The notes under the pieces: model-generated
What the model saw: the letters and a program-made list of their open reading frames with translations, nothing else
Databases searched by the model: none
Told to the model about the DNA's origin: nothing
Position numbers and translations under genes: made by a program
Shown: piece by piece, positions 991 to 54,860 of the stretch
Numbering within the stretch: the stretch's first letter is position 1
Layout: every line of letters begins with the position of its first letter
Assembly: GCA_019775845.1 (NCBI GenBank)
Contig: JADQAV010000002.1
Coordinates: 1,054,001 to 1,118,000, forward strand
DNA from: Myrmaecium sp. VS I D KN 1
Lineage: Eukaryota; Ascomycota; Dothideomycetes; Valsariales; Valsariaceae
Length of the DNA: 64,000 bases
Direction: 5' to 3'

Positions 991-1833
991 TCACAAGATA
1001 ACGCAATTGCCCTTCTTCTTCGACATCTTCTTGTTTGGCGGCGGCTCCAGTGCCGCAACGATGGCCTTTTCAGCTAAGTCAGTGGTGTTCTTAGTGTATA
1101 GAAGCGGCGTGATTGGCTTACCTCGTCGAAGACGTCCTTCAGCTTGTACTGAGTTAGAGCTGAACATTCCACGTACTTGACAGCTCCCAGGTCCCTAGCC
1201 ATGCGTTCGCCATCTTCTCGCCTGACTGGCGCCATCCTCTGCTTTGCCAGTTTTTCTTTGACAGAAGGGTCGTCCCTGAGATCCACCTGGGTCCCCACGA
1301 TGAGGCACGGTACGCCCGGGCAATGGTGATGAACTTCGGGGAACCATTTTTCCCGAACGTTCTCAAATGAAGCCGGCGAGGTCACCGAGAAGCAAACAAG
1401 GAAAACGTCCGTCTGTGGGTAAGAGAGGGGACGGAGGCGGTCGTAATCTTCTTGTCCGGCGGTATCAAACAGTCCGAGAGTGTAGGGCTCGTCTCCGATC
1501 CTGTTAGACGTGTTAGCTTGACGTACGGTTCGCAGAGGAGAGCAGCAAAGACGATCGCAATAACCGTCGTCTTGGCTAGATCTGTATTGTTGCACGAGGG
1601 GTTCATACATGACAGTAACCGCATAGTTGTCGAAGACGGTTGGGACGTATTCCGAGGGGAACTTATTCGTGGTGTACGAGATCAGAAGGCATGTCTTGCC
1701 GACTGCACCGTCACCGACGACGACACACCTAGACGACGCGAACCCTGTCAGTAAGAGACGACACTGAGTGCACGAAAGATATTGTTTGTCGAGTAACGCG
1801 GAGGCAAACGTACTTGATAGTTGCAACAACCAT
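991..1833 (-). CDS. cdc42: Cdc42 Rho-family small GTPase
   Basis: Four exons joined in phase: 1833-1814, 1728-1609, 1500-1122, 1065-991, giving 197 aa. The protein starts [19 protein letters not shown] (P-loop), then has the effector loop [14 protein letters not shown], switch [15 protein letters not shown], and the Cdc42-typical stretch [20 protein letters not shown] with GTQVDLRDD and ECSALTQ. The HHHC segment separates Cdc42 from Rac and Rho. The last exon gives [19 protein letters not shown] and ends in the CAAX box CVIL, predicted to be geranylgeranylated next to a polybasic patch. In fungi Cdc42 sits on the plasma membrane and sets polarity through PAK kinases and formins. The first coding exon is only 20 nt. 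Introns are 85, 108 and 56 nt with good donors (GTACGT, GTATGA, GTAAGC). Identity is firm; the exact last acceptor was chosen because it restores the family's [12 protein letters not shown]. Confidence 0.95.
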
Positions 1834-2792
1834 GTTGTACGAAAGACTTCAGAGCACGACGATTCCTGACTGCTGGGTGTACGGAAGACGAGGTGGAGAT
1901 AGCGCGGTCTATCTAAGCAAGCTGCGATTCGCGCCAATGAAGATACGCCGAGTGGGAAGGTTTGGGTTACTGGTCGTGAGGACGTGACGGTGTGGTGGTT
2001 GAAGGCGGGGAAACAAGTAGTAGTGGATGGTTGTTGGCTCGGTATCCAAACGAAATCAAGGGTCTAGAGCGGTGCGGGCCTGCCGCCAGTCGGGCGTATC
2101 AGTATGGACAGTCGGGTCGTTTGGAAAGCAGCATGAAAGTCTTCTCACGTACAGCCAAGCTAGACTCAGGACGACGAGAGGCGCGTGCAATGCAGACGGA
2201 CGCGTCCCTGAAACTTCAAACGTATGACGGATGGGTCACTCCGTGCCGCCCTGAAAGATCTCCGGCGAGTAGCTTGAAACAGATCAGGACTACGAGCGCT
2301 GCTGTCGTGTTGGGCTGGGAGTCTATGGCTGGGTGCCAATCGGCCAGGGAAGCAGGCGCCGAGGGCAAAGGGGGATACTCCCGCGAGAGATGGGGGCCAA
2401 CGGTAGAACAGGAGGACCTTGAGGTATGGGGACGAGGGCTTGTTGGTCCGAGTTGTAGAGGAGCTGGAGACGGACGTTTGCTTTGGGTTTGTCTTGGCGT
2501 CCTTGTGGCGGTGCGCCTCTTGAAGCCTGGGCTGCACGGAGCAGGAGTATGGCGGAGTGTTGTTACTGGTAGCCTCACAACCTGGTATTCGCTTCTTACA
2601 CCACCTAATTCCTCGTCGTTAGGGCGGGAGAACTGTGTGCTGGCACCTGAGAATTGTCGAACACCGCGGATTCTGCATGAGCTTGGCATCGTTCCTGCGC
2701 TGGAAGAGATCTGCGACTACGAACCGTTCAGATACCGCTGTGCTGTGTGACGTTCTTCCATCATTTCATGTCATCTACAGTATGGTGCAACC
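1834..2792. other. cdc42 upstream region
   Basis: This should contain the cdc42 promoter and 5' leader. A 252-codon open frame crosses it on the + strand (1992-2750), but it starts on GTG, has no recognisable domain and an unremarkable composition, so I treat it as chance. Confidence 0.5.
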
Positions 2793-4198: not shown

Positions 4199-6990
4199 AT
4201 GAAAGGCTTACTTGCGTTACTCCTAATAGCTGTCCACGCTGCGAACGCTCAGATTCCCGCATGGGGACAATGTATGTCTGGCAAGTGCAACTTCCAACAT
4301 ATGCCTAACATTTCCTAGGCGGCGGCACTGGGTACACTGGATCGACAACATGTGCAGCCGGATACATTTGCACGAAGTTAAACGACTACTACTCACAGTG
4401 TACCCCTGGCACAGGTTTGTTCGCTGATACCAGCAGTTCAAGTATGTACTCACCTTTCACAGTAACATCAACCAACCAAGCTGAACCATGTACGTTGCCA
4501 GTCACAATCATTCTGGCATTTAGAGCTGACCACAAAAGCAACTACAACGTCTTCTCTGGCACCAGGGGAGTCCGGTGGGGCTCCGGGTAGTAGTCCTGAA
4601 CCCGTATCCGGCATTGGAGACTGGGTAGACGCATATAAAAAAGCTAACGCGGCGTTGGCAAAGCTCTCTCAGTCTGAGAAGATAAGCATTGTCACCGGGG
4701 TCGGATGGAGCAAAGGGCCTTGTGTGGGTCATTCATCAGGATTGTGGCCGTTATCGACCCCCAGTTACTGACTGACGTCTCTCGTTCCACAGGTCGGCAA
4801 CACTGGTTCAGCAAGCTCCATCGGCTATCCTTCACTATGCCTACAGGATGGTCCCTTGGGAATCAGGTATGCAAAAGGCATAACAGCCTTTCCAGCCGGA
4901 ATACAGGGCGGTTCCACCTGGGACGTCAAGCTCATTAATCAGAGAGGCGCTGCACTTGGGGCTGAAGCAAAAGGCCTCGGAATCAATGTTCAGCTGGGTC
5001 CTGTGGCAGGCCCTCTTGGGAAGATACCTGAGGGTGGGCGCAACTGGGAAGGCTTCTCTGTGGATCCCTACTTGGCCGGCATAGCGATGCAGGAGACAAT
5101 AAGCGGCATGCAGGCGTCTGGCGTCCAAGCGTGCGCGAAGCATTACATCGGAAACGAGCAAGAGAATAACCGGGGCTCCATAAGTGCAGTTATTGACGAT
5201 CGGACGATGCACGAGTTATACCTCTGGCCTTTTGCGGACTCCGTGAAAGCCAATGTTGCCTCTGTGATGTGCAGGTAAGTATTATCTGGTTGTCCTTTGG
5301 ATCGATTATTATAGGACCTGACAGTTGTCCCAGCTACAACAAATTGAACGGAACATATTCCTGTGAAAATGAGGGCATTCTGAGTGGCCTTCTAAAGGAT
5401 GAGCTGGGGTTCCAGGGATACATAATGTCAGATTGGGACGCGCAGCATACTACAGCCGGAAGTGCGAATGCCGGGTTGGACATGACGATGCCTGGAAGCG
5501 ACTACAGTATGCATGCCTTCCAGGGATTGTTTCAGCAATGACTGATCTCTTATAGATGGTGGCACCATCCTTTGGGGACCGCAGCTTCAAGCCGCCATCG
5601 ACAGTGGCTCAGTGGCACAATCTCGGGTGGACGACATGGTTCGGAGGATCCTATCCTCGTGGTATCTCGTGGGTCAAGACAGCGGGTACCCGGCGGTCAC
5701 GTTCGACTCGTGGAATGGTGGTCAAGGTGGACCGGATGTACAGGATGATCACAAGAACGTGTCGCGAGCTATCGCACGAGATGGGATCGTACTCCTCAAG
5801 AACAGCAACAATGCCTTGCCCCTGAAGAAGCCAGCATCGCTAGCCATCATCGGTCAAGATGCCATAGTCAACCCTGCTGGAGCTAATGCCTGCACTGATC
5901 GTGACTGCGATACAGGCACGCTGGCGATGGGTTGGGGTTCTGGAACTGCGGACTTTCCGGTATGTTCTTAACCCATGTGGCACCTCCAAACCCCTTCAAG
6001 CACCCTTACTTACCATGCCTGCAGTACCTGATCGCCCCGTTAGATGCCATTACCACACAAGCCTCTGCGGATGGCACCAAACTCAGCACTTCTACCACCG
6101 ACGACACAAGCGCAGCTGCAGTTGCCGCATCAGCCGCCGCCACGGCTATTGTGTTCATCAATTCTGATTCCGGGGAAGGATATCTCACCGTGGAAGGCAA
6201 TGCAGGCGATCGAAATAACTTAGATCCATGGCACAACGGCAACCAGCTTGTCGAGGCCGTTGCGAAGGTCAACAAGAACACTATCGTCGTGATCCACAGC
6301 GTCGGCCCGCTCATCCTGGAGCAAATCTTGGCTCAACCCAATGTTGTCGCTGTCGTTTGGGCCGGTATCCCAGGGCAAGAGAGCGGAAATGGGCTGGTCG
6401 ATGTTCTATACGGCTCCACCTCGCCGAGTGGAAAACTACCATATACCATTGCCAAATCTTCGAGCGACTATGGTACCAGCATCGTAAGCGGAGACGACTA
6501 TTTCCCGGAAGGATTGTACATCGACTACCGTCACTTTGACAAAGCAGGCATCGAGCCGCGGTATGAATTCGGGTTCGGGTTGTCATACACTACGTTCTCT
6601 TACTCCGCCCTCGATATCAACAGCAGCGCCACGTCCGGCCCGGCTACCGGTGACATAGTTCCGGGGGGACCTGCAGACCTCTACGACATCGTCGCTACTG
6701 TCACGGCCACAATCACCAACAACGGCACGGTGGCTGGCTCGGAGGTAGCCCAGCTTTACATCGGCCTGCCATCTTCTGCGCCAGCCTCGCCGTTGAAGCA
6801 GCTGAGGGGATTTGACAAGCTGGCATTGCAGCCGGGAGCAAGTGCGGCAGCGGTGTTCAACCTGAGACGGAAAGACTTGAGCTATTGGGATACAGGAAAG
6901 CAGCAGTGGGTGCTTCCCACGGGGACTTCTATGGTGTCTGTGGGAGCAAGTTCTAGAGACGTGAGGTTATCGGGCGAGCTGACGGTGTAG
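4199..6990 (+). CDS. Secreted beta-glucosidase, GH3 with N-terminal CBM1
   Basis: Seven exons keep phase: 4199-4271, 4319-4489, 4539-4723, 4793-5274, 5334-5506, 5556-5959, 6025-6990, giving 817 aa. Residues 1-17 are a signal peptide ([17 protein letters not shown]). A family 1 cellulose-binding module follows ([15 protein letters not shown] ... YYSQC), with its first Cys codon split by intron 1. Then come a Ser/Thr/Pro-rich linker and the GH3 catalytic core: [15 protein letters not shown], and the nucleophile motif IMSDWDAQH with Asp near residue 337. The GH3 C-terminal domain and a fibronectin III-like domain follow ([12 protein letters not shown], then [12 protein letters not shown]). The enzyme should release glucose from cellobiose and short beta-glucans outside the cell. 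The end of exon 2 is the least certain splice: a donor at about 4423 also keeps phase and would shorten the linker. The start is the first in-frame ATG and directly opens the signal peptide. Confidence 0.93.
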
Positions 6991-7899
6991 TTGGACGGTG
7001 GTCAATGAGTCTACGAAGTAAAGCAGAGATGATGGCTGAGGTGAGAGATGAGGCATTTTGGACAGCATACAGATCAACATTGGCAAGAGCTGAATGGATT
7101 GTGCTATGACGTTTGGGGTTCATGAAGTCCGATAGGACTCCAATGTCCCTTCTGTCTCTTCTCCTCTCCCAATCCCGCTGACGATTCCAACCGTCTTGAT
7201 CAGCTGTACTCTACTCTATACACTGCTTCCAGAGTATAAAGCTATACATTCATTCAAAGCCGTAAAACCAGAACTCGGCAGGCGGATGCTCTTTATGAAT
7301 GATGTAGGTAGATTCGTCCTTCGTTCCACCACGGCCGCTTGGTTACCAGATATGTGTACGTACATGTTAGCAAACCAATAGCGGACAGGGCATTTATCGG
7401 TGGGTCAAAGCTGGCCGTATCGTGGAGTCCATCGCATCGGCGGGCCAGTCATCGGACGTGGAGGGCAAGGCGAAGGGCGTGCGATGGACTGTGTGTCCGG
7501 AGTACGGTGGGGTGGATCTCCGTGGCCCAGTGCAAAATACCGGTGGCCAGGAGCGTTGGGGGCAGCGATATCGCACTCGGAAAAGGTTCGCACGTTCGCG
7601 CAGATGGTGGGTGGCTGACCACGCTCGAACGGGCGAATGAGCGGTCATTGAAGACGTCAGCGCACGGCCATTTTCCCTTCGGCGCCGCCCAGAGATAAGT
7701 GCCGCAGACCCTCTTTGCTCGCCCGCCCACACAACCTTATAACCTCTTGTACTTCCTCTCGTCTTCAACACAGTCACCGTCATCCCAGACAACACCTCTC
7801 TACTCCTGCCACTCGACCACGCCCTTCGATCACTCTCTCAAGAGCATCAGCTCTCCCCCTCAAAACCCCCCTTGAAGTCGGACTGAGCAAATCGTGCTT
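6991..7899. other. Intergenic, CPA1 promoter and 5' leader
   Basis: The 3' UTR of the beta-glucosidase and the promoter of CPA1 lie here. A TATA-like CTTATAAC sits near 7736, about 160 bp before the attenuator uORF, followed by a C/T-rich stretch (7741-7870) typical of fungal core promoters. Several overlapping ORFs at 7339-7800 occur on both strands and none is convincing. Confidence 0.5.
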
Positions 7900-8250
7900 A
7901 TGCGTGCTGCCCCGACCCTCTTCACCTCCCAGGTACGATGACTCTTCCCCTCAGACTTTTTCTTTACTCTTTCCCCAATGCCTGCAATTCTGCGGCGCAT
8001 TCGCCCTTCAGATGCGCAAAAGGCTACGAGCAGGCACGGTATCTCTGCCCCTCAAGGTCTCGTCACTTCTAGCAAACACCCCCACCGCTATCGACATTCC
8101 CTTTGACCTTGAATGAAATGACTGTCGGCTAACGGACGTTATAATAGGACTACATCTCAGGTATGGCAGCCGTTGTCCACTACACCATGTCGCTCGCATC
8201 ACTAATCTTATCCATCCGAAGACCACTTGTGGAAGGCCTCAGTGAATTGA
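7900..8250 (+). CDS. Arginine attenuator peptide (AAP) uORF, three exons
   Basis: Exons 7900-7932, 8148-8160 and 8222-8250 join in phase to give a 24-codon peptide that starts MRAAPTLFTSQ, continues DYISDHLWKA and ends SVN-stop. The core FTSQDYxSDHLW is the hallmark of the fungal AAP, which stalls the ribosome at its stop codon when arginine is plentiful and so lowers translation of the CPA1/arg-2 frame downstream. Length and register match Neurospora (24 codons), and Asp12, needed for stalling there, is present. The start codon has C at -3, a weak context that suits leaky scanning. The uORF stop is 58 nt before the CPA1 ATG and no other ATG lies between. Introns are 215 nt (7933-8147, GTACGA..TAG, GGCTAAC branch-like) and 61 nt (8161-8221, GTATGG..AAG, ACTAAT). 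The peptide match crosses both junctions, so the splicing is well supported although inferred. Confidence 0.93.
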
Positions 8251-8308
8251 AAAGCCTTTCTCCAACAAATCGAATCTCAAACCACCCCGCCAACCGCAAC
8301 CTGTCAAG

Positions 8309-9803
8309 ATGTTGAACCTGTTCTTCAAGCAGTCAATGCTGAAGCAAGCCGGTGTCCTGGGAAGGGCTTCTACCCAGACACGATTCATGGCCACTGTCCA
8401 AAACAGTGCAGCCAGCGCCGGCAGGCGTCGTGTCGCCCCTACCGCATCCGAGCGAGCTACATTCACTATCAAGGTATGTTGGATTCGTTACAAGCTGGAG
8501 GCATGAATGCTCATCGTCATTCCAGAACGGACCTATCTTCTCTGGAAAGTCCTTTGGTGCCAAGACCAACATTTCCGGTGAAGCTGTCTTCACTACCTCG
8601 CTCGTGGGCTACCCCGAGTCTATGACGGACCCATCCTACCGTGGCCAAATCCTAGTCTTTACCCAGCCTTTGATCGGCAACTATGGCGTGCCTTCTTCCG
8701 CCAGGGACGAGCACGGGCTCTTGCGTTACTTCGAGTCCCCCAATATCCAGGCTGCTGGTATCGTCGTCGGAGACGTAGCTGAGCAACCGAGCCACTGGAC
8801 TGCCGTGGAAAGCTTGGCCGAGTGGTGCCAACGGGAGGGTATCCCTGCCATTAGTGGCGTCGACACCCGTGCCATTGTCACCTACCTCCGTGAGCAAGGC
8901 TCTTCCCTCGCCCGCATCACCATCGGAGAAGAATACGATGCCGACGAGGATGAAGCGTACATTGACCCTGAAGGCATCAACTTGGTCAGGCGTGTTTCTA
9001 CCAAGGCGCCGTTCCATGTCAACTCCTTGCTGGGCGACTTGCATGTTGCTCTTATCGACTGTGGTGTCAAGGAGAACATCCTTCGCTCGCTGGTGAGCCG
9101 TGGAGCCAGCGTGACCGCGTTCCCCTACGACTACCCGATCCACAAGGTTGCTCATCATTTTGACGGTGTCTTCATCTCCAACGGACCTGGCGACCCGACC
9201 CACTGTATGGAGACCGTCTACAACCTCAGGAAGTTGATTGAGACATCTCAGGTCCCTATCATGGGCATTTGCATGGGTCACCAGCTCTTGGCTCTCGCTG
9301 CTGGTGCCAGGACCATCAAGCTCAAGTACGGCAACCGTGCCCACAACATCCCGGCTTTGGACTTGACCACCGGTCGCTGCCACATCACATCCCAAAACCA
9401 CGGCTATGCGATCGATCCCAAGTCGCTTCCCGAGGAGTGGAAGGAATACTTCGTCAACCTCAACGACTCCTCTAACGAGGGCATGATCCATAAGACCCGC
9501 CCGATCTTTTCCGCACAGTTCCATCCCGAAGCTAAGGGTGGTCCGCTTGACTCTGGCTACCTGTTCGATAAGTACGTCGACAGCGTCAGGAAGTACAGGG
9601 ACGCTCAGACCAGCCTCATGCCCAACCGGAGCAGCAAGCCTTCCCCTCTCCTCGTGGACCTGCTTCCAAAGGAACGCGTTGGAGTTGAGCCTGGTCTGAA
9701 GGAGTACGCCCGCCAACCACGTATGGGCACACCGCCTCCTGCCGGCGCACAGCCTGGTGGTGTTGCCCCCCAGGCGGCCACTCCTGTCGCCGCTGCTGCG
9801 TAA
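8309..9803 (+). CDS. cpa1: Carbamoyl-phosphate synthase, arginine-specific small (glutaminase) subunit, mitochondrial
   Basis: Two exons (8309-8473, 8526-9803) give 480 aa. The Arg/Ser/Ala-rich N-terminus (about residues 1-45, no acids) is a likely mitochondrial presequence. The small-subunit domain follows ([36 protein letters not shown]), then a class I glutamine amidotransferase domain with [13 protein letters not shown], nucleophile motif GICMGHQ (Cys about 304) and FHPEA (His about 388, Glu about 390). The enzyme splits glutamine and passes ammonia to the large subunit to make carbamoyl phosphate for citrulline and arginine. The Ala/Pro/Gly-rich tail after about residue 450 is low-complexity. 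The arginine attenuator uORF just upstream confirms the arginine-specific form and predicts translational repression by arginine. The ATG has A at -3, better than the uORF start. Confidence 0.97.
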
Positions 9804-10622
9804 ATGGGAATACTTTGGAGTTTAGTGGTAGAAAGGGTTCATTGGGGGCGACAATTTGATCTGTCATGCCGGAGTTAAGGAGGTCTTGAAAATTGTTTAG
9901 TAGTCTAGTAATTCAGTTGAAAGTTATCTTCTCGGAAGTATGCCTGCGAAACCTTTATCATCCACGCAACGTTGATGTTCCCAGTACAATGGATCTGCGC
10001 TCCATACCACGTGCCGCCCACCTCTCGCTTGACCGAACCTGACGCGGATGGGCCCAAACGCGACTGCCTCTTACAGACACAGATGCCACCGTCCCCAGAG
10101 AGCCCAATATCAGTACAATAGATTATGTCATCGCTATCTTCTTTCGACCTCGCCGTCCGCCTCAACCTCAACCGGAGCGCTCTGATCACCTATTCTTCCC
10201 CGACCTGCTCGTCAAGGCCTTCGCTCTGACCTTCCCCTACCACCGTTCATGTTCTCAGCCTGCCTTCTCTTCAGGATTCGACGATAGCCATTGCTTGATG
10301 ATTGAATGCATTCCCCAATCGCAACGTGGTGGAGGTTCATCTGTCTACTGGGCTAGTGCTGCACGCTGTAAGCAGCGAGAATTTTATCTCCTTCTGGCTG
10401 CAACTGGGATGACTGAAGGCTTACCTTGAAAGTAGACCGAGGCTAGCAACCTAACCGAAGCCTTTCCACTCTCGCGCGGCTGGAGCAATCGCCAGAACAT
10501 TGGCTTCACTTCGCCAGCACTCGCTACCATTATCACTATTGCTCTTCGGACGCAACCTAGTGGAAACAGGAAGTGCGCACTATCAGCCAGCTCACTAGAG
10601 CTGCTGTATGAGAAGCCTCAAG
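9804..10622. other. Intergenic between CPA1 and the next + strand gene
   Basis: The 3' UTR of CPA1 and the upstream region of the 10623 gene lie here. The second half (10090-10560) is C/T-rich like a 5' leader, and could hide a non-coding first exon. I see no gene. Confidence 0.4.
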
Positions 10623-12425: not shown

Positions 12426-14477
12426 CTACACACCACCCTCCTTCTCCTTCTCCTTCTCCTTTTCGCTCTCCCTCCCCAACCGATCTTCTCTCTCTCCCGC
12501 CGCAGCCACGCTCACCCTCTCCTCTTGTTCTTCCTCCACTACCTCCCCCTCCCTCCCACCATCCCCATCCTTCTCGGCATCCCTCTCAGCATCCCTCCTC
12601 GGCTCCCCCCGCCGCCTATCCCGCCGCTTCCGCGCCCCCTCCTTCAGCTCCTCCCACTTATCACGATAGCGCGCCACGACCTCGGCCAGCCGCCGATTCT
12701 GCCGCTCCAAGCGATCGCGGTCGCGAGCCGCGGCGGCGGCCGCCGCGTCCCGCTCGCGCAGCGCCTGCTCCAGGGCGCGGACGCGGGCGTGGACGTCCCC
12801 GGCGTCCGCGTCCTCGGGGGTTGAGGGAGGGGGAAGGTCTTGGGGTGGTTGGGATTGAGGTGGACGAGCGCCGACGGCCCGGAAGGATTGCCGGAGGGCC
12901 ATGGATTGGGATTGGCTGGCGGCCTCCCACATCTGGAGGCGGCGGGACTGCTGGTCGAGGAGCTGGCGGAGCGTCGCGTTCTCGAGTTCGAGCTCCTCGG
13001 GGGTTTTGCGGGGGCGGGTGGGCACCGCCGCCGCGGTGGTGGTGGCGGTAGAGCGGCTGTTGCTGGATCTTTTGGTGGTGGTGGTGGTCGGGTCGTGGGT
13101 GTTGCTTCGGAGGGAGCGCGGGGAGGTGGGCGAGGGCGGGAAGGGGTTCTCGTAGGCGTCGACGAACTCCTCGGCGGAGGCGGAATTGGCTGGGTTGACG
13201 GGCGCATGCTCGTTGTCGTCGTCGAGGAGGCGGTCGGCGGGTCCGGTGGGTGGGTTGGACAGCATGCCGGCGTAGGAGAGGGTGCCGCCGGTGGTGGGCA
13301 CGACGTAGAAGGATTCGGCCTGGGCGGCGAAGGGGCCGTGGGGGCCCGCCTCGTCGCGGAGCGCCCGCATGGCCGGGCGGGAGATGAGCGCGTTCAGGTC
13401 GAGGTCGGCGGGGTGCGGCGGGGAGGTCTGGCGGTCCTTTTCGCGCGGCGGGGGCGGGGTGGTCGCGGGCGTGGTGTCGGTAGCCGGCGGGCCCGGGTCC
13501 AGCGGCAGGCTGGCGAAGGCGAGGGGGGCGGAGATGGCGGAAAACAGGTTCTCGAAGCGGGAGAAGAAGCGATTGAAGGGCTCGTCGGACTTGGTGGGCG
13601 AGAGGCGGGAGCGGCCATCATCGGCGGGTTGGAGGCTCTGCTGGGACGGTCCCTGGCCCGGTCGGGTAGCGGTCGTAGCGGGAGCATGCTTGGAGAGCTC
13701 GTTCAGTCGCTGGGTCTGCCGCTGGATGGCATCTCGTGCCGTCGATGGGGACAGTTGCGCGTCCAATCGACCTTGCCTCTCCGCGCGGCCGGGCAAGCTT
13801 GCCAGCGCACTCGTCGCCGACGACAAAGGCGTTCCCCGACTGTGAGGCGACTTGATCCCCCGCGCGGTGGCCAAGCTGTTCGCAATCGAGCTCGTCGATT
13901 CGCGGGGGGTTTTGCGACGCGGCGGCGCCTTCGCGGGGGAGGTGGACGACGGCCGCGTGGGAGATGCCAGGTGAGGTGCGCCAGCGTCAGCACCAGCATC
14001 AGCACCAGCAGCAGGACTGCCGGGCGCCTTTTCGGATGCGGCGATGGGGGTTTCTTCACCCTCCGTACCGGTCTCAGTTTTCACATCATCCTCCTCGTTG
14101 GGGGCCTCAGTAATCGTCGTCACCGCGCTGGAGCGTCTCGTCGGGGCTTTACACAGCTCGGCCAGGCGGCGATGCTGGTCTTCGAGGAGGTGGAGGATGC
14201 GCAGAGCCTAAGGTACACGGGCACACGGATGCGCAATCGCGAGAGGCACTTGTCAGTCCCCGATGGTCAGGCAAGGTGCAGCTTTTCCGGCCCGGTGCGG
14301 ACGGAGAAGCGGCCGGACATCGCTCACCTCGGGATCGGTCGTGGTGCGGGCGGCGTTGGCGAACTCTTGGGCGGCCAGCTCGTGCTCGCTGCCGGCGGCG
14401 CTGGAGTTGGGACTCCACGCCTCGGCGGCCGCCTTGGTGACGTGGGCGTGGGCCAGGGTGAGTGGTGCGGTCTCCAT
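12426..14477 (-). CDS. MIT-domain protein with C-terminal coiled coil
   Basis: Exon 14477-14328 (50 codons) and exon 14207-12426 join in phase to give 643 aa. Residues 1 to about 72 fit an MIT three-helix bundle split by the intron: LTLAHAHVTKAAAEAW, then ELAAQEFANAARTTTDPE | ALRILHLLEDQHRRLAEL. MIT domains dock on ESCRT-III tails and related partners. The long middle is Pro/Ser/Thr/Ala-rich and disordered, with a conserved-looking FNRFFSRFENLFSAISAP near residue 230. A predicted coiled coil follows (ELELENATLRQLLDQQSRR; later VRALEQALRERDA and RDRLERQNRRLAEVVARYR). The tail is Arg/Glu-rich with short KE repeats. A role in vesicle or autophagy traffic is inference from the MIT domain alone. 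The coding strand is very GC-rich, which opens a 564-codon shadow frame opposite it. Confidence 0.8.
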
Positions 14478-15663
14478 GATGAGGAGGTGGAGGAGGTGGA
14501 GGAGGATGTTGTTGTTATGGTGGTGGTTGGGTGAGGGTTGGAGGGGATCACAGGATGCAGGATGACTGATTACATATGCAGAAGTATGTACCTAAGGTAC
14601 GAAAGGCTCATATGAACAGATGCAGAGTATTCAGGCAGGTATTCTATGTAGCACTGCAACATGTCCATATGCACTCCGCAGTACCTCTGTATCTCCATGT
14701 CTCCGCCCGATCGGTACAAGATACTGTAACTACTCCTAGAGTGATATATTACTATAGTAGTAGTCTGTACAATTCACCCTCGAGAACTACTTAAGTCGCC
14801 CTGTACCTCCCAGGTACATACCTTACTGTACCTGTACCGTACCTGGGCTATGTACGCTTTGTACCTTTCACCTACCCCGGCAAGGAACAGGTGTTGGGGG
14901 AGCCGGTGACCTCATCAACCGCCAATGGCTACTAGTCGCCATGGATGTTCCCTGCCCTCGGCCTTGCCTGCCCGAACAGGATCACAACTTTATATTGTAT
15001 ATTTACTAGTAGTACTTACCTGTATTTATAGATAGTAGTATTTAAGCCGAGGCAGTGAATATAAGCCGGATTCCTTTTCTGGACGGCAAATTCGACCGAC
15101 ACTCTCGTCACGATCAAGTACTAACGTACTAAACTCACTGTTCTCTACCTTACCTGTTCACACTGCGATCACCTTCACTTCATCCTCTCTCTCTCTCTAT
15201 TAACCGCCGTCGCATCATCTCTTTCCTCTTTCCCGTTCACGATAACCAACTGCCGCCCCACTTCCAACGCTGCCGTGCACAGCCACCGAGCCGAGCGCAC
15301 GCGTGGAATCGTGCGCCTACTCCCGTACTCGTACCTGACGCTATCTGCCCTGGTGATTGATGAATGCGCCGTCTTGTGCTGAACGACATTCACCATTTCT
15401 CCTGATTCCTCTTCTTGGCCCTTTACAAGGAGCAATTGGTCCAGTGGAATCGAGGGCTCAAGCGCGTGCATCTATATGCGTACAACTCGCACAGTACCTA
15501 GTGAACTGACCGTCTCTGCACCGGGCCAGCGATGCCTGCATGAGTGAGTGGCCGGCCATCCACTGAATCCGCAGCGAGATTCAATCAATCAACCAAGCAA
15601 TCAATCCTCGCCGCGCAGGACACACTCTGGCCAATCGCCCTGCACCAGAGGACCGCTCCCACC
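14478..15663. other. Divergent promoter region of the MIT and LAM genes
   Basis: The two flanking genes are transcribed away from each other. An AT-rich core (14575-15060) holds many GTACCT/AGGTAC words. A CT run (15184-15204) and long C/T-rich leader precede the LAM gene. Two tiny uORFs lie just upstream of its ATG: 15532-15543 (MPA) and 15540-15566 (MSEWPAIH). Confidence 0.5.
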
Positions 15664-51900: not shown

Positions 51901-53367
51901 TCAGAAAAGGATGCCGTTACAGTTCTCCGACTCCTGAGCCGCCCAGCTCTCGAACCGGTCCCGCAGCCAGCCGCTCTTCCAGGCGCGGATCCGGTCGCCG
52001 TGCCGGCCGCCGGCCACCTCGGGCGTCCGCCGCTCGCCGAGGGCGAAGGCCTGGCTGAGGTGGCAGTGCGTCTCCTCGTTCGCGTTGAAGTTCGGCGCCG
52101 TCACGTTGCTCCAACTCCACATCATGCACGCCTCATTCCGGATGCACGCCTCCACGCACGCGCTCTCCGACGCATCCGCATCCGCCTCCGCCTCCGCTCC
52201 GTCTTCCGCCGTCTTCCACTCGATGTTGTACCGGCGGGTGTCGAACGCGCTCGCGCCGTTGTCCCAATCCGCCCGGGTGGCGTCCAGCTGGGCCGGGGCG
52301 ACGAAGCGCTGGTAGAGGTCCTTGAAGGTGACGCCGCGGTCCCCCTGGTCGATCTCGAACCGCCAGACCTCGCTCGCCTCCTCCGGCCGGACGTGGTGCA
52401 TCCCCACGACGGGCGCGCACCACGTCTCCTTGGCGAACGGCATCGTCGCCGGCTTCAGCCCGCTCAGCAGCGGCCACGCGTTCGTCAGCTCCACGCCCGT
52501 CTCCTCCTTGATCGCCGCCGCCAGCACGTAGTCGCCGAACCACATGTCCTGCGCCCGCTCGTCCCACCGGGCCGCCCAGTCGCCCGTGCTCATCAGCTGC
52601 TCGACCAGGCCCCGGCTGAGCACGAAGCCGCTCCCGCCGTGGGCGAAGGGGTACGTCTCCCCCTCCGGCGCGCGCGGGTTCCCCGTCGGCTTGCCCAGGT
52701 ACAGCGGCGTGGCCGGATCCATCTTGCCCAGCCAGGCGAGCAGGTTGCCGCGGAGCAGGTGCGTGTCCGGCTCGGCGAAGACGTACCAGTCCCGCGCCGG
52801 CCGCCGCCGCCACGCGTCCTCGACCATGTGGCAGAACTTGTACTTGTCCAGCGCCCAGCCGGCGCCGTGCCCGCCCGTCCGCCAGTCCGGCCGCGGGTCC
52901 GGCCAGGCAGCCAGCTCGCGCACGTCCTGCCCCAGCTCGGCGTACCGCCGCAGCTCGTGGTAGACGGCGAAGTCCGGGTTGGTCTGCTTGAGCGTCTCGT
53001 TGTAGTCCGCCAGCACGTCGAAGAGGTCGAAGCCGCCCATGCCCTGGTCCAGGTCGGAGTAGAGGAGCAGGTTGGGGTAGATCTCCGGGTGGAGGAGGAG
53101 CAGCACGCCCGGCAGCTTGTCGAACGCCTCGATCGCGCCCGTCTTGATGCTCAGCACGACCTGGTCCTGCTGAGCCGGCGCGGCGGGAGCCCCGAGCGTG
53201 TCCTTGCCGTCCTTGTTGGTGCCATCTGCCTCGGCGTCGAGCTCAGCTTCTTCGTCCCCGGGGAAGGGCGTCCGGGGGAACTGTTTGACCCAGAGGATCC
53301 CGTTGAAGATGAGGAAGAGGACGGCGACGCGGAGGAGGGCGGTGAAGGAGCGTATGGGGGAGAGCAT
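51901..53367 (-). CDS. Type II membrane glycosyltransferase, GT31/Fringe-like
   Basis: A single exon of 488 codons from the first ATG (MLSPIRSFTALLRV). Residues about 5-28 are a signal anchor, so it is probably a Golgi lumenal enzyme. The core has fungal GT31 features: LLLHPEIYPNLLLYSDLDQ, ALDKYKFCHMVEDAW, then RDWYVFAEPDTHLLRGNLLA, PLYLGKPTG, FAHGGSGFVLSRGLVEQLM, and AQDMWFGDYVLAAAI. Classical members have a DDD/DxD metal motif where this one has EPD, so catalysis may differ although Asp remains. Near the C-terminus ACVEACIRNEACMMWSW and a later Cys look like a PAN/apple-type disulfide patch. Sugar donor and acceptor cannot be told. The coding region is very GC-rich and opens a 584-codon shadow frame on the other strand. 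Confidence 0.85.
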   Translation of the reverse strand: MLSPIRSFTALLRVAVLFLIFNGILWVKQFPRTPFPGDEEAELDAEADGTNKDGKDTLGAPAAPAQQDQVVLSIKTGAIEAFDKLPGVLLLLHPEIYPNLLLYSDLDQGMGGFDLFDVLADYNETLKQTNPDFAVYHELRRYAELGQDVRELAAWPDPRPDWRTGGHGAGWALDKYKFCHMVEDAWRRRPARDWYVFAEPDTHLLRGNLLAWLGKMDPATPLYLGKPTGNPRAPEGETYPFAHGGSGFVLSRGLVEQLMSTGDWAARWDERAQDMWFGDYVLAAAIKEETGVELTNAWPLLSGLKPATMPFAKETWCAPVVGMHHVRPEEASEVWRFEIDQGDRGVTFKDLYQRFVAPAQLDATRADWDNGASAFDTRRYNIEWKTAEDGAEAEADADASESACVEACIRNEACMMWSWSNVTAPNFNANEETHCHLSQAFALGERRTPEVAGGRHGDRIRAWKSGWLRDRFESWAAQESENCNGILF

Positions 53368-54860
53368 GATCGTCAATCGGTTCTGCGGCTGGTAATAGAT
53401 GAGGATGTCTGAGAGGGAGAGCTCCGGGAGCTATGGCCCAGAGGAGGGGAAGAAACGTGGGGGCGCGGGAAGGAAGGAAGGAATAAAGTTATGAAGCGAA
53501 CGGACGGAGGAAGGCGGGAGGTTCAGGGTGAATGGTGGAGGGAAGTCGAATCAAGCACGGAAAGCTACACAAGCGGGAAACGTCGAGGGCAAAGCTCGGT
53601 GCACCATCGATTTGAAAGAGAGAGAATGAATTAGAAAGGATGAAAGAAGGAGATCGGTGAGTGAGGAGGAACCATCAAGATGATGGCAAAATGCGTATGA
53701 AAGGGGGAAGATGGGAGGAGAGGGAAAGAAAGAGAGAGACACGGCCAAAGGAAGATCGGAAAGGGAACGGAAGCGAGCCGCCAGGATGCTATTCTTGGAG
53801 CAGACGCGGGATGGCTAACCACCGTGGGGAGGGAGGGGGGGGGGGGGGGGAANNNNNNNNNNNNNNNNNNNNGAGTACCAATGGGTGGACCATGTGCTGG
53901 TGCTTGGTGCTTGCCATGGCCCTCCCTCCCTTTTCCCGACGCGCGTGTTTCCTGGGATTGATAAACAAACTCGGACGTTGTTTGGCGGGGGGGAAAAGGG
54001 TTCAGGGGTAAGAGGAGTAACACGCGGATCCCGGGTTTCAGGGGGTGGGGAATAGGGGATACCCCGGCGCTTTGATGTGATGGGGCGGCGGGCTGGCGCT
54101 AGCTGCAGGTTCACTAGTGAACCCCCTCCCTTGTGGATATGGCGGGCGGGTAGGACTGATCGCGAGTTGAGCGACAAGGTTAATCATCCTTCGATGCCCT
54201 CCAAAATACTAACCCATGCCTGAAGTATCTGACATTTCCCTGGCCTTGCGATGCAATCGAAGACCATCGCGACGGTGAACGCAACGTCACACCTGCAGAC
54301 ATCAGCACTTCCGCTGCAAGCCGCAATGCCGAGCATCCAAGCCACGCCCTGCCTCCGCGGGTCTCAAAGCAAATCCTATCACGTTAATTTCTGGGGAAAA
54401 GAAAGCGAGGAGAAACACTTCTTGGATCAGTTGGCCGCGGGACCAACATATTCAATTGCTTCGTCGTACTATCAAATCCGGCTGCGCCAAGGGCAACAAC
54501 CGGGCAGGAGTAAAACGCTCCTCTTATAATTCCACCGTTCCTCCCCCTCGTTCTGCTCCAGATTGCCGACGGCAGGCTACCTCTGGATATCGTGCAGTGT
54601 AATGTAGAGTAGCAGTGTAGCGACTTACGTTATGAATCCAGCTTTCGGCTGCTCATGACTCCGCTACACAATGGGGGAATAAAGGAAAGGGAAGAGAAAG
54701 GCATAGATGCGCTAGCCGGCAGAGAAAACCTGCCAGCCAGTGCAAGAAGGAAAATGAAGATCGTTCAAACTCCGCCGACCACGTAGTAGCCATCGTCGAG
54801 ACCTGTGAAGGAAAAATCCACTGCGGAGGACGTCAGTAACCGATAGGTCCAATGAATCTT
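53368..54860. other. Intergenic with an assembly gap
   Basis: The glycosyltransferase upstream region, a G run plus gap, and the 3' UTR of the coiled-coil gene lie here. Purine-rich stretches occupy 53640-53780. The ORF at 54251-54529 has no recognisable content. Confidence 0.5.
53835..53872. other. G16 run followed by a 20-N assembly gap
   Basis: Sixteen consecutive G at 53835-53850, two A, then 20 N at 53853-53872. The round number suggests a gap placeholder of unknown length, caused by the homopolymer. Confidence 0.95.

Follow-up and report, generated by a model that had tools for sequence, protein, structure and literature searches.

Among the metabolite-sensing nascent peptides of fungi, the arginine attenuator peptide (AAP) is the textbook case. 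The locus described here raises the question of whether an AAP upstream open reading frame (uORF) can be carried in three separate pieces of a CPA1 leader, and whether arginine control of CPA1 would then depend on nuclear splicing of the sensor itself. We addressed this question in the window, that is, the whole stretch of 64,000 nucleotides analyzed from the genome of Myrmaecium sp., and in searches of the genome and of related sequences.

A three-piece reading frame ahead of CPA1

The first-pass annotation of this DNA had proposed that three pieces of 33, 13, and 29 nt give a 24-codon peptide once both intervening introns are removed. This was confirmed with exact coordinates (Table 1), and the joined exons translate to MRAAPTLFTSQDYISDHLWKASVN, followed by a stop codon. 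Asp12, Tyr13, Ile14, and Ser15 are encoded by the middle exon. Read without splicing, the uORF frame runs into a stop after 13 codons, and no unspliced, intron-retained, or exon-skipped reading yields the AAP peptide, in agreement with the earlier statement that the peptide appears only in the spliced form. The splicing of the three pieces is itself predicted from the DNA.

Table 1. Features of the uORF and of CPA1, in window coordinates
Feature	Position	Strand	Length (nt)	Remarks
uORF exon 1	7900..7932	+	33	ATG; codons 1-11, MRAAPTLFTSQ
uORF intron 1	7933..8147	+	215	GTACGA...TAATAG; phase 0, between codons 11 and 12; 5 ATGs
uORF exon 2	8148..8160	+	13	microexon; codons 12-15 (DYIS) and first base of codon 16
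uORF intron 2	8161..8221	+	61	GTATGG...CGAAG; phase 1, after first base of codon 16; 2 ATGs
uORF exon 3	8222..8250	+	29	remainder of codon 16 to codon 24 (DHLWKASVN); TGA at 8248-8250
Spacer, uORF stop to CPA1 start	8251..8308	+	58	
CPA1 coding exon 1	8309..8473	+		start context GTCAAG ATG, A at -3
CPA1 intron	8474..8525	+	52	junction 223 nt past the uORF stop in spliced RNA
CPA1 coding exon 2	8526..9803	+		CPSase_sm_chain and GATase domains

The spliced peptide belongs to the Pfam family Leader_CPA1 (PF08252), with a score of 44.7 bits against a curated cut-off of 18.5. When the PDB was searched with the peptide, one sequence was matched, the arginine attenuator peptide 2xl1 (E 2.8e-7), which we take to be that of Neurospora crassa arg-2, and 14 of the 21 aligned residues were identical. 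The conserved core residues Asp12, Tyr13, Ser15, Asp16, His17, Leu18, and Trp19 all align with 2xl1, and residues 22-24 (SVN) lie outside the aligned stretch. In the passages drawn from PMC8370653, the AAP is said to depend critically on the aspartate for its function. The Leader_CPA1 profile, the match to 2xl1, and the position before the CPA1 ORF uphold the earlier identification of the frame as the AAP uORF of CPA1, and the sensor itself is of a known kind.

The CPA1 ORF (8309-9803) lies on the same strand as the uORF, encodes 480 amino acids, and contains a single intron. By eye, the N-terminus of the protein looks like a mitochondrial leader. The 120 matches listed, of 7991 found in the CPA1 protein search, showed 73-87% identity over 82-100% of the query, and the best named ones among them were from Macrophomina, Saccharata, and Coniosporium, which belong to the Dothideomycetes and point to a source in that class. 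Many CPA1-like models among the listed matches carried the name 'Multifunctional pyrimidine synthesis protein CAD'. The other PF00988 matches of the genome are located on contig C66 and presumably represent the pyrimidine CPS.

Several further features of the region were recorded. TGACTC occurs at 7939, within intron 1, and TGAGTC at 7006, some 900 bases ahead of the uORF; we take both to be half-matches to the general amino-acid control site. No RNA family was found in the window by Rfam at gathering thresholds, nor any tRNA by the tRNA scan, and no tandem repeats were present in 6500-10500. The unspliced RNA of 8148-8250 gave a fold less stable than its shuffles (z 1.98), with no sign of structure. 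Elsewhere in the window, the frame 5905-6990 (+) has glycosyl hydrolase family 3 C-terminal and Fn3-like domains, and the frame 1074-2063 (-) has a Ras-family domain. In addition, two open frames overlap on opposite strands, 12825-14534 (+) and 12426-14207 (-), spanning 569 and 593 aa from stop to stop, and neither has a Pfam match at E 0.01.

Chance controls and splice signals

Since the pieces are short (33, 13, and 29 nt), the spliced frame might resemble an AAP by chance, and two-intron readings of the window were scored against the core FTSQDYLSDHLWRA, whose letters come from the 2xl1 match. The settings allowed GT-AG introns of 40-260 nt around a middle exon 6-30 nt long; no more than one mismatch was tolerated in that exon and no more than two to its left. 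A single placement on the plus strand reached 12 of 14 identities, and its runner-up reached 9. None of the 23 controls (minus strand, reversed window, complemented window, and 20 Markov shuffles) had 10 or more identities or gave anything comparable: the maximum was 8 or fewer in the minus-strand, reversed, and complemented window, and 9 in the Markov shuffles, found in one shuffle. Against a chance resemblance therefore stand the 12 of 14 identities here versus at most 9 of 14 in the controls, the location of the uORF directly before CPA1, and the Pfam score far over its cut-off. The Pfam score and the 23 controls refute such a resemblance in practice, and its probability is negligible. The assembly of the window contains 20 N within 53000-54000.

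Both uORF introns are GT-AG introns with a branch site near the acceptor, as is characteristic of spliceosomal introns. Intron 1 combines a GTACGA donor and a TAG acceptor with a CTAAC whose branch A lies 15 nt before the acceptor G; intron 2 combines a GTATGG donor and an AAG acceptor with a CTAAT whose branch A lies 16 nt before the acceptor G. On the plus strand of the window, CTAAY is found 10-25 nt before 49 of 4146 AGs (1.2%), and the donor form GTANG, which both uORF introns share, accounts for 204 of 3604 GTs. Because the undisputed intron of the CPA1 coding region lacks CTAAY, this motif is regarded as supportive here, not obligatory. The splice signals are independent of the peptide evidence. 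The middle exon, with its 13 nt, is very short, and this counts against the spliced-uORF reading.

Predicted dependence of the arginine sensor on splicing

Nine ATGs are present from 7700 through the CPA1 start, namely that of the uORF, that of CPA1, and seven others. All seven of the others lie inside introns (five in intron 1 and two in intron 2), and the leader spliced from 7700 onward keeps the starts of the uORF and CPA1 as its only ATGs. If intron 1 is retained, the uORF stops after 13 codons and five further short uORFs are exposed. If intron 2 is retained, the uORF extends to 66 codons and runs past the CPA1 ATG, and two exposed starts have frames ending at 8313, across the CPA1 ATG. 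If exon 2 is skipped, a stop follows after 18 codons and the core is absent. Because all seven other ATGs are intronic, keeping either intron in the RNA would abolish the sensor and bring in additional uORFs. The spliceosome is accordingly expected both to make the sensor and to clear the stretch from 7700 to CPA1 of competing starts.

The genome (25,660,682 bases in 66 contigs) was also searched without regard to introns. A degenerate DNA pattern for the AAP had no match in it, as expected because the frame is split, and the six-frame, intron-blind search with the short PF08252 profile returned nothing over the cut-off of 18.5, with one candidate scored. This candidate, SDYISQHIPKTS, reached 15.2 bits on the minus strand of locus L084 (1501-1536; G000:C10:2831391-2831426), lacks the core tryptophan and the second core aspartate, and is probably a chance match. 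By eye, another frame on the same strand resembles part of a fungal transcription factor, and no AAP-like motifs were found in the six frames of this locus.

Granted that the uORF is the sensor, these results support the earlier claim that arginine control of CPA1 needs splicing, given that only the fully spliced reading yields the peptide and that the intron-blind genome search stayed below the cut-off. The claim has to be refined: retention would not simply free CPA1 of arginine control, since the introns carry further ATGs. Intron-retained forms would probably be repressed or decayed at any arginine level. For this reason, a switch of the simple type, with unspliced RNA evading control by arginine, is disfavoured.

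Very probably, the locus carries the 24-codon AAP uORF of a filamentous-ascomycete CPA1, assembled by the removal of two ordinary spliceosomal introns and acting by the ordinary stalling mechanism. The uORF ATG stands in a weak context (GTGCTT ATG C, C at -3), whereas the CPA1 ATG is better placed, with A at -3, a difference that fits leaky scanning at low arginine. Once both introns were removed, a fraction of scanning ribosomes would start at the weakly placed uORF AUG. At high arginine, the growing peptide, which contains the Asp12 core, would arrest the ribosome at the stop codon of the uORF (8248), so that scanning to CPA1 would be blocked and the mRNA would probably be exposed to nonsense-mediated decay (NMD). 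At low arginine, leaky scanning would reach the CPA1 start at 8309. A junction complex at the CPA1 intron, if present, might cause the stalled termination to be read as premature and thereby lead to decay. Most likely, the splicing is constitutive, making the sensor and removing seven ATGs that would hamper CPA1 translation. The actual splicing, stalling, arginine response, and mRNA decay are what we infer for this locus. As far as the excerpts of two reviews (PMC11550727, PMC6492140) go, the CPA1 uORF is governed by leaky scanning at low arginine and by stalling at the stop codon at high arginine. According to the passages of PMC7049704, NMD acts on CPA1 mRNA in both yeast and Neurospora, and the Cryptococcus mRNA increases 5-fold without UPF1.

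A gene model of a relative bears on whether intron 1 is peculiar to this species. A Coniosporium apollinis gene model (P0017) has the AAP part fused ahead of CPA1 (...FHKNLN-DYISDHLWKA-SERATF). Leader_CPA1 aligns with its residues 145-155 (DYISDHLWKAS), at model positions 12-22 only. Since this match starts at Asp12, the predictor behind the gene model apparently placed an acceptor right before this residue, where intron 1 of the window ends. This single machine-made protein model suggests that intron 1 is common to at least one relative. In a Pseudogymnoascus model (P0122), the complete AAP is joined to the front of CPA1, which has no bearing on introns within the AAP. Both fusions are evidently annotation errors. 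PF08252 was found in two of the 120 listed (of 360) matches of a region search around the P0017 fusion, namely P0017 and P0122, and in one of the 120 listed (of 7991) matches of the CPA1 search, P0017. An AAP-like pattern requiring Q, K, R, or E before Asp12 had no match in 121 proteins; P0017, with N at this place, escaped the pattern, which was drawn too narrowly. When a fusion of the AAP and CPA1 served as the query of a region search, no candidate came up, yet P0017 shares seven of the 5-residue words of that query, and this search was uninformative. The best 80 of 123 matches in a genome contig scan for fungal relatives all bore bacterial or archaeal titles, and in a viral contig scan five stretches matched a pattern, none of them encoding a relative.

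Two other readings differ from constitutive splicing of a working sensor. The fully spliced share of the transcripts could vary with arginine, growth, or stress and so set the level of sensor-bearing CPA1 mRNA, an improbable arrangement in our judgment. Expressed as a choice made by the cell in the nucleus, between CPA1 mRNAs able to sense arginine and others silenced at any arginine level, this would make inclusion of the 13-nt core exon or removal of its flanking introns condition-dependent, and we consider it just as unlikely. Such regulation could draw on the fact that every single departure from full splicing (retention of intron 1 or of intron 2, or skipping of exon 2) destroys the sensor. 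It also has parallels: in the excerpts of PMC11121469, a 20-nt microexon of Trichoderma Xlr2 is glucose-regulated, and in those of PMC7049704, two other translationally repressed Cryptococcus genes have conserved uORFs and 5' introns with alternative splicing or intronic non-coding RNAs. However, the splice signals here are good, the alternative forms would be expected to yield repressed or decaying RNA instead of useful CPA1, and the length of 13 nt is not divisible by three, as that of most switch-like microexons is according to the passages of PMC11121469. The intron-1 boundary is apparently not peculiar to this species either, judging by the gene model of one relative. Regulated splicing is possible but unsupported.

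The AAP pieces could also be a relic that is no longer translated, if CPA1 transcripts start downstream of 7900 or if the leader is spliced otherwise. A transcript start ahead of the uORF is a prediction from the DNA, which leaves room for this reading. Yet the core of the peptide, its start and stop, and the two intron boundaries are intact all at once, whereas in a relic some of these should have decayed. A TATAA (7738) also precedes the uORF. We regard a relic as very improbable, less likely still than regulated splicing. Constitutive removal of two introns to form a working AAP sensor is the reading we prefer.

Novelty and comparison with known systems

A comparative study of the AAP uORF by Hood, Spevak and Sachs (2007) may already discuss or report introns in it. 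Introns inside the AAP uORF are not mentioned in the passages drawn from papers that treat both the AAP and introns, nor in those from PMC5640933, PMC11550727, and PMC11121469. A 2024 paper (PMC11121469) states in its abstract that its 20-nt case was the first functional microexon to be described in filamentous fungi. A 13-nt exon carrying the heart of a regulatory peptide would be notable if confirmed. If the AAP code needs three exons, uORF scans of unspliced 5' flanks will miss the AAP; the six-frame Leader_CPA1 search of this unspliced genome found nothing over the cut-off. If true, the translational sensor would thereby be tied to correct nuclear splicing, and the locus would be a natural setting in which to ask whether NMD is strengthened by introns that lie within a stalling uORF and behind it.

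The CPA1 uORF of Saccharomyces cerevisiae is, to our knowledge, uninterrupted. For its leader peptide, the excerpts of PMC11550727, PMC2075485, and PMC6492140 describe stalling that depends on arginine, together with leaky scanning and decay of the mRNA by NMD. The Cryptococcus CPA1 uORF (CND01050) likewise encodes an AAP; it is strongly occupied by ribosomes and sensitive to NMD, and the passages of PMC7049704 contain no statement on introns interrupting it. In the same passages, leader introns of Cryptococcus average 118 nt and coding introns 63 nt; because leader introns there usually exceed coding ones, the length of intron 1 is not odd in kind. For the relative Coniosporium apollinis, the likeness is that, in the machine-made protein model, the AAP match begins exactly at the point where intron 1 ends here. 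Trichoderma Xlr2 likewise has a very short exon (20 nt) in a gene of a filamentous ascomycete, which, by the excerpts of PMC11121469, encodes part of a transcription factor, is glucose-regulated, and does not belong to a uORF. A further close counterpart is the AAP of N. crassa arg-2 (2xl1), which is likewise 24 residues long and has the same FTSQDY-SDHLW core, and whose 24-residue peptide stalls with free arginine according to the passages of PMC10501990. In the present locus, the frame is split by two introns around a middle exon of 13 nt, which may set it apart from the Neurospora frame.
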